From positions 1 to 64,000 of the forward strand of contig NZ_JACHIB010000006.1 in assembly GCF_014203015.1 (NCBI RefSeq): DNA of 64,000 nucleotides, given 5' to 3'. The position numbers and the translations under genes were made by a program. Each line of letters begins with the position of its first letter. Within the stretch, counting starts at the first letter, position 1. This stretch comes from Castellaniella defragrans. Its GTDB lineage: Bacteria; Pseudomonadota; Gammaproteobacteria; Burkholderiales; Burkholderiaceae_B. This document shows, in pieces, positions 6,187-37,215 of the stretch. A model generated the notes under the pieces. The model ran no database searches, was not told the DNA's origin, and saw only the letters and a list, made by a program, of their open reading frames with translations.

Positions 6187-7128
6187 TCAGCCGGCGTCCG
6201 CCGGGCCCGGGCCCGCGGCCCGGCGTCCGGGCGCGCCGGCCATGCGCGCCCGGTAGCTGCCGGGCGATTCGTCGGCCTGCCGCAGGAAGAAGCGGCCGAA
6301 ATAGGCCGGATCGTCGAACCCCAGCGCATAGCCCACCTGGCTGACGGCCTGGCCGGAATAGAGCAGCAGGCGGCGCGCTTCCTGCATCAGGCGGTCGTTG
6401 ATCAGCCGCTTGGGCGGCTTGCCGGTCATGCGGCGGCACACCTCGTTGAGCCGCTGCTCGCCGATGCCCAGCTCGGCCGCGTAGCGGGACAGCGTCCAGT
6501 GCTCGCGGAAGCGGGCTTCCATCAGCGCGCTGAACTGCTGGAAGAGCTGCAGTTCCTCGCGGCACGGCGGGGGCGAGCCCAGGGCCTGGGAGGACAGGCG
6601 CAGCAGGCTGATGAAGATCAGGCGCGCCAGCAGCAGCAGGCTCTGGTCCCGGCCCGGCCGCCGCCCGGCGTGCTCCCGGCGCAGCAGGTCGAACAGCTGG
6701 TCCATGCGGCGCGCCTCGTCGGCGTGTTCGCCTTCCAGCGCGCCGATCGACAGGCAGACGGGCGCGATCTGGGCGCCGCTCGCGGGCCAGACCGTGTCGT
6801 CGTGCGGCATCGGCCAGAGCGACTGCGGCCTGACGGTGAGGACGTGGCCGTCGGCGTCGTCGTCGGTCACGAACGCATGCAGGAACGCCGGCGGCGTGAG
6901 GAACACCATCGGCCCGCGCAGGCGGTAGAGGCCGTCCTCCAGCTGCACGCGCACCATGCCCTCCAGGACGTAGTGGACCTGGAAGAACTGGTCGTGCCGA
7001 TGCATCGCCATGCTGCGCCCCAGCTGGCTGGCCAGGGTGCCGAGCGCTTCGTAGTGCAGGTCGGCATCCGCGTGATCCGGGCCCGCGATGTGGCTCAGAT
7101 CGAGATTGGGAATGTCCTGCCGCGACAT
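6187..7128 (-). CDS. hpaA: AraC family regulator, HpaA type
   Basis: A 313-residue transcription factor. The N-terminal half is a cupin-like sensor (HRHDQFFQVHYVLEG, LRGPMVFLTPPAFLHAF), and the C-terminal about 100 residues are an AraC DNA-binding domain with two helix-turn-helix motifs (WTLSRYAAELGIGEQRLNEVCR and VGYALGFDDPAYFGRFF in part). The composition matches HpaA, the 4-hydroxyphenylacetate-responsive activator of the 4-HPA monooxygenase genes. It is convergent with those genes, from which it is separated by 66 nt. The start is preceded by GGAAACGGT. The last about 20 residues are a Pro/Ala/Gly-rich tail beyond the usual domain end. Confidence 0.8.
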   Translation of the reverse strand: MSRQDIPNLDLSHIAGPDHADADLHYEALGTLASQLGRSMAMHRHDQFFQVHYVLEGMVRVQLEDGLYRLRGPMVFLTPPAFLHAFVTDDDADGHVLTVRPQSLWPMPHDDTVWPASGAQIAPVCLSIGALEGEHADEARRMDQLFDLLRREHAGRRPGRDQSLLLLARLIFISLLRLSSQALGSPPPCREELQLFQQFSALMEARFREHWTLSRYAAELGIGEQRLNEVCRRMTGKPPKRLINDRLMQEARRLLLYSGQAVSQVGYALGFDDPAYFGRFFLRQADESPGSYRARMAGAPGRRAAGPGPADAG

Positions 7129-7182: not shown

Positions 7183-7275
7183 TCCCGCCGGGCATCCCTG
7201 CCGGACGTTCCCGTCCGGCATGCACCCGGACATCCCGCCGGGACATCCCGCCCGGGCATTCCCGCCGGGCATCGA
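7183..7275. repeat. degenerate short repeats between hpaA and the Nudix gene
   Basis: The word CCCGCCGGGCATC occurs at 7184-7196 and 7261-7273, with CCCGCCGGGACATC at 7234-7247 and further decayed copies in between. Together they form a degenerate array of 13-14 nt units in the divergent intergenic region. No function is evident. Confidence 0.55.
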
Positions 7276-7315: not shown

Positions 7316-7903
7316 ATGACTTCGTCCGATCCCGCCTTCTACCACCCCGCCCCCCGCTCCCAGCAGTTCTGCTCGCAGTGCGGCCATGCGCTCAGCCGGG
7401 AAATCCCGCCGGACGACAACCGCATCCGCGACCTGTGCACCCACTGCGGCGCGGTCCACTACCAGAACCCGCGCAACGTGGTCGGCGTGGTGCCGATCCT
7501 GGACGACCGGGTGCTGCTGTGCCGCCGCGCCATCGAGCCGCGCCACGGCAAATGGACGCTGCCGGCCGGCTTCATGGAACTGGGCGAGACCACCGAGCAG
7601 GGCGCCGAGCGCGAGAACCAGGAGGAATCCGGCGCGCGCATCCGCATCCGCTCCCTGCTCACGGTGATCGACGTGCCCTCGGTCAACCAGGTCCACCTGT
7701 ACTACCTGGCCGACGTCCTGGGGCCGCATCTGGCGCCGGGACCGGAAACCCTGGAGGCCGCCTTCTTCGGCCTGGACGAGATCCCCTGGCGCGAGCTGGC
7801 CTTCCGCACCGTCAGCACGACGCTGGAGCACTACCTGCGGGACCGCGCCCTGGGCACGTTCCCCACCCACCACTACGCCATCGACCTGCGGTTCCCGGAC
7901 TGA
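7316..7903 (+). CDS. Nudix hydrolase with N-terminal zinc ribbon
   Basis: A 195-residue cytosolic pyrophosphohydrolase. Four cysteines in two CxxC pairs (Cys19/22 and Cys41/44) form a small zinc ribbon, followed by a Nudix domain with an intact box from Gly85 to Ala107 (G-x5-E-x7-RE-x2-EE-x-G), in which Arg99, Glu100, Glu103 and Glu104 supply the metal-binding and catalytic positions. This architecture resembles the NudC-related, ADP-ribose/NADH-pyrophosphatase-like branch; the actual nucleotide substrate is not determinable. No Shine-Dalgarno precedes the ATG and a TAAAAT hexamer lies 6 nt upstream, suggesting a leaderless transcript. It lies 33 nt upstream of aat on the same strand. Confidence 0.88.
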   Translation: MTSSDPAFYHPAPRSQQFCSQCGHALSREIPPDDNRIRDLCTHCGAVHYQNPRNVVGVVPILDDRVLLCRRAIEPRHGKWTLPAGFMELGETTEQGAERENQEESGARIRIRSLLTVIDVPSVNQVHLYYLADVLGPHLAPGPETLEAAFFGLDEIPWRELAFRTVSTTLEHYLRDRALGTFPTHHYAIDLRFPD

Positions 7904-7936: not shown

Positions 7937-8899
7937 ATGACGCTCGCCTGGGTCGAAGACCGCGATCCCCTGCCCGACCCGGCCCGCGCGCCGGTGCCCG
8001 CCAGCGGCCTGGCGGCGGCGGGGCTGGACCTCTCGCCCGCCCGGCTGGCCGAAGCCTACCGCAAGGGCCTGTTTCCCTGGTACGGCCCCGGCGAACCGGT
8101 GCTGTGGTGGAGCCCGGACCCGCGCATGGTGCTGCGCTGCGAGGATTTCCGCGTCAGCCGCTCGCTGGCCAAGCGCGTCCGGCAGTTCGACCGGGCCGCC
8201 GGCGGTGAGCCCGTCCCCGAACCCGCCACCGGATCCGCCTCTGAGTCCGCCACCGGATCCGCCTCTGAGTCCGCCACCGGATCCGCCTCTGAGTCCGCCA
8301 CCGGATCCGCCTCTGAGTCCGCCGACCGCCCGCCGCGCACCGACGCCCCGCCCGCCCTGTGCGTCACCCTGAACCTGGCCTTTCCCGAGGTGATCGCCCG
8401 CTGCGCGCGGCGCGGCGCCCCGCGCATCGGCCTGGGCGCCGCCCGCGCCGGCCGGGACTGGGCCGAACCCGGCGCGGCGCAGGGCCGGGACGCCACCTGG
8501 ATCACGCCGGACATCATGGCCGTCTATACCGCCTGGCACCGCATGGGCCGCGCCCACAGCGTGGAAACCTGGATCGGCGGGCGGCTGGCGGGCGGCCTCT
8601 ACGGCGTGGGCCTGGGGCAGTGCTTCTTCGGCGAATCCATGTTCAGCCTGGCCGCCGACGCCAGCAAGGTCGCCCTGGCCTACCTGGTGCGCCACCTGCT
8701 GGCCCGGGGCGCGTCCTGGATCGACTGCCAGCAGGAAACGCCCCACCTCGCCAGCCTGGGCGCGCGGCCCGTGCCCCGCGCGCGGTTCCTGGAGATGCTG
8801 GCGGCCGGCCGCGACGCGCCGGCCCCGCCCTGGGAGCGCGGGCGCCTGCGGGCCGACGGCGGCCTGGAGCCGCCGCCCGCGGGCTGGCGGGCGCGCTGA
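7937..8899 (+). CDS. aat: leucyl/phenylalanyl-tRNA--protein transferase with repeat-bearing insertion
   Basis: Transfers Leu or Phe from aminoacyl-tRNA to the N-terminal Lys or Arg of proteins, marking them for ClpS/ClpAP degradation (bacterial N-degron pathway). Family hallmarks are clear: AYRKGLFPWYGPGEPVLWWSPDPR near the N-terminus (only partly quoted motifs: GLFPWY, WWSPDPR), TWITPDIMAVY, HSVETW, GGLYGVGLGQCFFGESMFS and IDCQ. At 320 residues it is far longer than the E. coli enzyme (234). The excess is mainly two insertions: residues about 90-136, with four exact octapeptide repeats ATGSASES encoded at 8225-8320, and an Arg/Ala/Gly-rich stretch at about 158-190. Both lie between conserved blocks, probably in surface loops. 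It precedes bpt, another N-degron transferase. Confidence 0.92.
   Translation: MTLAWVEDRDPLPDPARAPVPASGLAAAGLDLSPARLAEAYRKGLFPWYGPGEPVLWWSPDPRMVLRCEDFRVSRSLAKRVRQFDRAAGGEPVPEPATGSASESATGSASESATGSASESATGSASESADRPPRTDAPPALCVTLNLAFPEVIARCARRGAPRIGLGAARAGRDWAEPGAAQGRDATWITPDIMAVYTAWHRMGRAHSVETWIGGRLAGGLYGVGLGQCFFGESMFSLAADASKVALAYLVRHLLARGASWIDCQQETPHLASLGARPVPRARFLEMLAAGRDAPAPPWERGRLRADGGLEPPPAGWRAR
8225..8320 (+). repeat. 4 x 24-nt perfect tandem repeat inside aat
   Basis: Four identical, contiguous 24-nt units (8225-8248, 8249-8272, 8273-8296, 8297-8320), each containing a GGATCC and the word GCCTCTGAGTCC, encode the octapeptide ATGSASES four times in frame. Exact identity of all copies means recent expansion or ongoing slippage. 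Loss or gain of whole units keeps the aat reading frame. Confidence 0.97.
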
Positions 8900-9066: not shown

Positions 9067-9804
9067 ATGAGCAATCCCAGTGAATCCATCTTCCGCCGCC
9101 TGCAGTTCTACACCACGGCCAGCTATCCGTGCAGCTACCTGCCCGGGCGCATGGCGCGCTCGGAGGTGGCCGCCCCCACCCACCTGGTGGACGAGGCCGC
9201 CTATGCGCGGCTGATCGAGCAGGGATTCCGCCGCAGCGGCCTGTTCACCTACCGGCCCGCCTGCGAGCTCTGCCAGGCCTGCATTCCCATCCGCATCGAC
9301 GTCGGGCGCTTCCGCCGCGACCGCACCCAGGGCAAGCTCTGGCGCCGCCTGCAGCCCGTGCTGAAGGCGCGCCTGGCGCCGCTGCACTGGGACGCCCGGC
9401 ATTTCGACCTGTACCTGCGCTACCAGAAGCGGCGCCACCCCGGCGCCGGCATGGACCAGGACGACCAGGCCCAATACACCCAGTTCCTGCTGACCAGCCG
9501 GGTCCATTCCGAAATGGCCGAATTCCGCGACGACGGCGGCGCGCTGCGCATGGTGGCCATCATGGACCGCGTGGACCACGGCCTGTCGGCGGTCTACACC
9601 TTCTACGATCCCGACTGGCGCGCCAGCCTGGGCACTTACGGCATCCTCTGGCAGCTGGACTACGCCGCCCGCCTGGGCCTGCCCTGGCTGTACCTGGGCT
9701 ACTGGATCGGCGAAAGCCGTAAAATGGCCTACAAATCGCGCTTCAGGCCGCATCAGATCCTGCGCGGCGGCGTCTGGACCGAACCGCCGCCGGACGGCGA
9801 CTGA
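9067..9804 (+). CDS. bpt: aspartate/glutamate leucyltransferase (Bpt)
   Basis: A 245-residue aminoacyl-tRNA--protein transferase of the arginyltransferase-like (ATE1-related) family. The bacterial Bpt clade attaches Leu to N-terminal Asp or Glu, feeding substrates into the ClpS/ClpAP N-degron pathway. Recognisable blocks are CSYLPGR, the cysteine motif [29 protein letters not shown], the acetyltransferase-like core [28 protein letters not shown], and [20 protein letters not shown] near the C-terminus. The start is chosen at the conserved MSNPSES-type N-terminus; longer in-frame extensions run through the upstream gene and are not credible. It follows aat by 167 nt and precedes pyrD by 49 nt. 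The older label for this family, arginyltransferase (ate), is less accurate for this clade. Confidence 0.9.
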
Positions 9805-36000: not shown

Positions 36001-36006
36001 TCCGCC

Positions 36007-36132
36007 CATGAGCGTGCCGGGCCGTCCCCCACCGCGAATGCCTTCGTGCACGGCACGAAGGCGAAGTCCCATGAGCGTGCCGGGCCGCCCCAAACGCGAA
36101 TGCCTTCGTGCACGGCACGAAGGCGAAGTCCT
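36007..36132. repeat. two tandem copies of a ~62-nt palindrome-bearing repeat
   Basis: Two direct copies (36007-36069 and 36070-36132, differing by a 1-nt indel and few substitutions) fill the gap between the NTF2-like gene and the YheT-type hydrolase. Each contains a perfect 10-bp inverted repeat with a 3-nt loop: GCCTTCGTGC and GCACGAAGGC at 36040-36049/36053-36062 and at 36102-36111/36115-36124. This is the structure of a repetitive extragenic palindromic element. No third copy was noticed in the window. Confidence 0.9.
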
Positions 36133-37215
36133 ATGACCGCGCGCATCGACACCCGCCCGTGCCCCGTGCCGGCCTGGCTGCCCGGCGGCCACGTCCAGAC
36201 CCTCTACGGGGCCTTCTGCGCCCAGCACCCCACCCTGCACTTCGTGCGCGAACGGGTGGACACGCCCGACGGCGACTTCATCGACCTGGACTGGTGCGGC
36301 CCGGGCCTGAACCCCAACCAGCGGCCCGGCGGCCAGGCCTCGCCGCACGAATCCGGCCTGGTCGGCACGGCGGCGCGGCGCTGGATCGAGGACGCCGACT
36401 GGGCCGCGCTGGCCGGCGGCCCCGCCCTGATCCTGTTCCATGGCCTCGAAGGCAGCAGCCTGAGTCCCTACATGCAGGTGATCGCCCACGATTTCCGCGC
36501 CGCCGGCTGGACCGTGGCGGCGGCGCACTTCCGCGGCTGCTCGGGCGTGCCCAACCGCATGGCGCGGGCCTACTACAGCGGCGATTCGGCCGAGATCGAG
36601 TTCATGCTCGGCCACGTCCGCGCCCGCCTGCCCGGCGCCGAATGGCACGCCGCCGGCATCTCGCTGGGGGGCAACGCCCTGCTGAAGCTGCTGGGCGAGG
36701 CGGGCACCGGCCCGCACGGCCTGCGGGCCGCCGCCGCGGTGTCCGTCCCGATGGACCTCCCCGCCTGCGGCCGGCGCCTGTCGGACACCGGCTGGGGACG
36801 GCACCTGTACACCCGCCATTTCCTGCGCAGCATCCGGCGCAAGATCTTCGACAAGGCCCAGGAATTCCCCGGCTCGGTGGACGTGTCGCGCACCCAGAGC
36901 ATGCGCAGCCTGCGCGAGCTCGACGACCTGTACACCGCGCCCATGCACGGCTACCGCAACGCGCTGGACTACTGGACCCGCGCGGCCAGCCTGCCGCTGC
37001 TGCCGTCGATCCGCACGCCCACGCTGGTACTGAACGCCCGCAACGATCCCTTCGTGCCCGAGGCCTCGCTGCCGGGTTCGCGCGACGCGTCCGGCGACGT
37101 GCTGCTGCACCAGCCGGCGCTGGGCGGGCACGCGGGCTTCGTCACCGGCATGTTCCCGGGCCACCTGCGCTGGCTGCCGGCGCGGCTGCTGCGGTTTTTC
37201 GGCACCGGCGACTGA
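36133..37215 (+). CDS. YheT family alpha/beta hydrolase
   Basis: A 360-residue hydrolase of the YheT/AB-hydrolase (UPF0017) family. It starts with the family segment VPAWLPGGHVQTLYGAF, has the oxyanion block LILFHGLEGSS, the region HFRGCSGVPNR, the nucleophile elbow GISLGGNALLKLLGE (Ser in GxSxGG, about residue 178), the acid in LNARNDPFVP and the catalytic histidine in GGHAGFV. Members act as esterases or lipases on membrane-associated esters. The upstream sequence is the 62-nt repeat pair, so the start directly after the second copy is preferred over ATGs within the repeat. Confidence 0.9.
   Translation: MTARIDTRPCPVPAWLPGGHVQTLYGAFCAQHPTLHFVRERVDTPDGDFIDLDWCGPGLNPNQRPGGQASPHESGLVGTAARRWIEDADWAALAGGPALILFHGLEGSSLSPYMQVIAHDFRAAGWTVAAAHFRGCSGVPNRMARAYYSGDSAEIEFMLGHVRARLPGAEWHAAGISLGGNALLKLLGEAGTGPHGLRAAAAVSVPMDLPACGRRLSDTGWGRHLYTRHFLRSIRRKIFDKAQEFPGSVDVSRTQSMRSLRELDDLYTAPMHGYRNALDYWTRAASLPLLPSIRTPTLVLNARNDPFVPEASLPGSRDASGDVLLHQPALGGHAGFVTGMFPGHLRWLPARLLRFFGTGD

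Follow-up and report, generated by a model that had tools for sequence, protein, structure and literature searches.

The analysed stretch of DNA, a 64,000-nucleotide segment of a Castellaniella contig that we refer to as the window, contains an aat gene whose product carries an array of perfect tandem repeats (Table 1). The gene is preceded by a gene for a NUDIX protein (7316-7903) and followed by an arginyl-tRNA-protein transferase-type gene (9067-9804), both assigned through Pfam, and a ClpS gene is found elsewhere in the same genome. The Aat protein matched Pfam PF03588 with an E-value of 1.9e-59 and scored 162 bits against NCBIfam TIGR00667, above the cut-off of 143.55, which places it in the L/F-tRNA-protein transferase family, whose members transfer Leu/Phe to N-terminal Arg/Lys. 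When its predicted structure was queried with Foldseek, the nine best structural matches were L/F-transferase chains, one row of which was named E. coli, and the E. coli enzyme (2z3l_A) was matched with an E-value of 3.7e-22 and a TM-score of 0.92 by target length. In E. coli, aat is dispensable.

Table 1. Location of the aat gene and of its repeat and insertions, in window coordinates.
Feature	Position	Strand	Evidence
aat, leucyl/phenylalanyl-tRNA--protein transferase, 320 aa	7937-8899	+	PF03588, TIGR00667, Foldseek
Low-complexity linker insert, residues 89-140 (the array and its non-repeated edges, 8 and 12 residues long); predicted to be disordered	8201-8356	+	pLDDT, sequence, composition
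Perfect period-24 tract, 4.21 copies	8223-8323	+	computed exact extent; Tandem Repeats Finder row 8223-8328
Four identical 24-nt units, (ATGSASES)x4, residues 97-128	8225-8320	+	unit search and translation
Second insertion, residues 157-185, just before TWIT, in 8 of 10 genus genomes	8405-8491	+	alignment; pLDDT

The four perfect 24-nt repeats described in an earlier note on this DNA were confirmed as exact units that keep the aat reading frame. They are near-identical units arranged head to tail, and they are absent or differ in number in related species (none of the nine other genus genomes matched), two of the three properties by which variable number tandem repeats (VNTRs) are recognised, the third being a copy number that differs between strains of the species. 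Each unit carries a GGA and a TCT codon. When aat outside the array and four neighbouring genes are counted together, GGA accounts for 2 of 118 Gly codons and TCT for 0 of 61 Ser codons. The presence of these rare codons in every unit fits the multiplication of one unit. The same rare codons, together with an array G+C content (0.72) below that of the aat gene (0.77), would also fit a linker left over from the insertion of mobile or foreign DNA. The array is nevertheless close to the window mean in G+C content (0.70), no other copy is present in the genome, and the edges of the insert read as low-complexity coding sequence. We therefore regard a foreign origin as extremely improbable.

Allowing up to three mismatches, a search of the 3.94-Mb genome placed the unit at four sites, each of them within the aat array, while a backward-read control of the unit was found at none. 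This indicates that the array did not arise by chance. Scanning 220,000 bases of the contig for perfect tracts (periods 7-120, at least 2.6 copies, real letters only) returned the aat tract and three others with 2.6 to 2.85 copies. Tandem Repeats Finder produced 92 rows for those bases, which may overlap so that several can describe one array, and the aat array ranked fifth by score. Among the rows that outscored it, three describe repeats at about two copies and the fourth an imperfect array with 8.8 copies of a 21-base unit. The 21-base array (contig 91177-91360, outside the window; 81% matches) also has a unit that is a multiple of three. Within the window, a degenerate 26-base array (7183-7273; 3.5 copies, 75% matches) lies in the interval that separates the NUDIX gene from an ORF on the minus strand (6187-7128), and a 62-base unit is repeated 2.1 times at 36005-36136 (94% matches).

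Two further ideas about the array were discarded. Hairpin-driven expansion was rejected, as single-strand folding of the array was ordinary relative to shuffled sequences (z of -1.33 and -0.66 for the two strands). Open frames on both strands across the array look like the usual effect of a G+C content of 70%, and not like overlapping or antisense genes.

The genome assembly consists of 45 contigs, and on the same contig, beyond the window (78033-78459), tandem repeats with a 78-base unit lie on either side of a run of Ns (78208-78304). This run is a warning on copy numbers, although it may be a withheld stretch instead of an assembly gap. The number of units in aat might likewise be an assembly artefact, with a true array that is longer, shorter or variable. 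We consider this unlikely. The tract is only 101 bp long with unique flanks, which is within reach of ordinary short reads, and the frame is kept. Moreover, a collapse would lower the number of units and would not create a repeat.

We modelled the structure of the protein from a 38-row alignment, with a mean pLDDT of 85.7 and a pTM of 0.84. Confidence was high in most of the model, as 18 of the 27 blocks outside residues 91-140 had a mean pLDDT above 90, whereas the five ten-residue blocks of residues 91-140 had means of 59, 47, 47, 51 and 67. No helix or strand was predicted between residues 88 and 141, and the loop runs from helix 75-88 to strand 141-145. In this model, the repeat falls in a linker, predicted to be disordered, that separates the N-terminal part of the enzyme from its GNAT-like catalytic part. 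The earlier claim that the repeat expanded inside an essential region of the fold is thus not borne out: it is predicted to be disordered between confidently folded parts, and the conserved residues are kept.

The conserved positions were defined on the 37 other rows of the alignment, with the window protein itself excluded. It retains all 46 columns that are invariant in those rows and 70 of the 71 that are at least 90% conserved, the exception being an N instead of a D at residue 146. Residues W48, W188, F230, E233, D263 and Q265 align to E. coli W49, W111, F153, E156, D186 and Q188, which we take to be the catalytic and pocket residues of the active site, and all six are kept. Compared with the homologs in the two closest relatives in the genus, G002 and G003, the aligned core of aat had a dN of 0.082 and a dS of 0.294, and a dN of 0.071 and a dS of 0.305, respectively. 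The resulting low dN/dS ratios (about 0.28 and 0.23) show purifying selection on the aligned core. Judging by its sequence, the window Aat is otherwise normal, with its core retained.

The E. coli enzyme (PDB 2z3l, 2dps and 2cxa) has the same family assignment and fold, and differs in length. Aligned with the 233-residue E. coli PDB chain, the window Aat has 87 additional residues, in agreement with an excess of about 85 residues noted before. Of this excess, 78 residues fall between two aligned blocks, where both insertions lie and where E. coli has 22 residues and the window protein 100. The other nine are at the C-terminal end, which is nine residues shorter in E. coli.

We next compared the length of the linker, counted from the end of the basic helix to the next strand, among Aat proteins that were retrieved with a profile search and then aligned. 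The loci are best matches and belong for the most part to the same order; 123 were read, not counting 19 loci that came from the unit search or were contig stretches, and dropping three that lacked the anchor motif left 120 loci with 109 distinct proteins. The linker has at most 13 residues in 107 of the 109 proteins and 58 in the window, in a single species, which shows how permissive this interdomain linker can be. A sample of 150 genomes from the phylum gave a similar picture. Aat was matched in 134 of them (one row per genome, with a second contig-end piece of G210 dropped), and the matched span exceeded the model span by 71 residues in the window, a value that includes both insertions, compared to -14 to +11 in the other 133 genes. 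The window Aat is the only strong length outlier among the 134 Aat genes of this sample.

To see how the repeat is distributed in the genus, we queried ten Castellaniella genomes, one per species, with a 156-base stretch spanning the array. It matched only the genome of the window (G000), and the repeat stretch was not found in the nine others. The linker has 13 residues in both G002 and G003, 45 fewer than in the window, and 10-12 residues in six other genomes. In a protein tree built without the linker, G000, G002 and G003 formed a group with support of 99/99, inside which G002 and G003 paired with support of 93/85. Ten of the 14 inner branches were open, and an Alcaligenes row meant as an outgroup fell on the genus side, so the tree gives no firm deeper order.

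The remaining genome, G001, encodes a second long linker of 40 residues, whose sequence is unrelated to that of the window. It contains no tandem array, and a single 11-base direct repeat was found in it. The two long linkers are unlikely to go back to one origin, considering that they have no evident shared sequence and that G000 groups with two short-linker species. Mapping the long-linker label onto the tree gave two changes, a count that 500 of 500 shuffles matched, as only two rows carry the label.

The four units are identical, silent sites included, which points to a recent event. One of the observations that the earlier note had named as speaking against a very recent expansion, an array of unchanged number and sequence in every related species, is excluded for the nine other genus genomes. 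That expansion is thus supported as an in-frame and species-specific event, within the limit of a single genome per species, and from these sequences it is probably both lineage-specific and recent.

The position of the loop raises the question of whether repeat number could be a selected length tuner, with the length or acidity of the loop setting the use of tRNA or substrate. The loop directly follows helix 75-88, which contains several Arg and Lys residues (SRSLAKRVRQF) and possibly touches tRNA; we take its tRNA role from work on E. coli. Two members of the genus have long linkers, and the second of these may be a hint that extra length at this site is of use in the genus. Conversely, the loop is predicted to be disordered, the two long linkers have no evident common sequence, and linkers of 10-13 residues are found in eight of the ten genus genomes. 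We consider selection on repeat number to be distinctly unlikely.

Part of the extra length of the protein had been attributed to a second insertion. This insertion is indeed present in Aat, where it adds about 20 residues, but it is separate from the repeat event, being common to eight of the ten genus genomes and absent only in G007 and G009. Since it also occurs in genomes without the repeat, it is the older of the two. The site holds 26-28 residues in 8 of the 109 distinct proteins, all from this genus, and at most eight in 101. The model is more confident here than in the linker, with block means of 83, 82 and 77 for residues 161-190 and a short predicted helix at residues 166-170. The insertion immediately precedes TWIT, an active-site motif, and adjoins the residue aligned with E. 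coli W111. If either insertion affects activity, the sequence and the model would make this one the better candidate.

It has further been proposed that the loop could tune N-degron specificity, and nothing beyond the position of the loop bears on this. A broader version, in which Castellaniella Aat is a length-variable enzyme whose disordered, copy-number-changing loop, next to a helix that may face tRNA, and genus-level insertion before TWIT jointly set the choice of N-degron substrates and vary between strains, is in our view very unlikely.

The repeat is most probably a nearly neutral, in-frame coding minisatellite in a tolerant, flexible linker of an otherwise normal Aat. One 24-nt unit would have been multiplied by replication slippage or unequal recombination after the species diverged from the nearest relatives sampled. 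Tolerance of the product would follow from the exposed, unstructured nature of the linker and from a unit length divisible by three. By default, the outcome would be a longer, Ser/Ala-rich and mildly acidic loop that affects catalysis little or not at all. The unit may have been seeded by the native linker, as one close relative carries an A-x-G-S-A motif there. In G003, the linker (DRTAAVGSAPALC) agrees with the unit at 12 of 18 bases, a score reached by none of the 239 other windows of that gene. The best match in G002, 11 of 18 bases, was in a different register and was reached by 28 of 239 windows, while the best matches in G001, G004 and G006 (9 to 11 bases) were reached by many. These matches are weak evidence that the native linker gave rise to the unit. 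Counting against the minisatellite reading as a whole, the non-repeated edges of the insert are not explained by slippage of this 24-nt unit.

If strains of this species vary in copy number, the array would be useful for typing them and would offer natural variants in which to study linker length in a transferase that depends on tRNA; without such variation, it would be ordinary. Events of this kind are known, and the aat repeat has so far given no sign of a special function. Our literature search returned no paper joining Castellaniella with tRNA-protein transferase, and none joining phenylalanyl-tRNA-protein transferase, insertion and tandem repeat. The available parts of a review (PMC4810233) and of a Leishmania paper (PMC6135404) likewise contain nothing on the Aat linker. 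In-frame coding VNTRs and minisatellites are known from bacteria, for example the pe/ppe VNTRs of M. tuberculosis (PMC12817950). Like those, the aat array consists of intragenic units whose number can change while the frame is kept; unlike them, it lies in a conserved enzyme gene and is known here from one genome per species. A census of tandem repeats finds them enriched in disordered protein regions (PMC7230257), and the aat repeat conforms to this pattern, lying within a predicted disordered stretch with no notable difference from the repeats described there.
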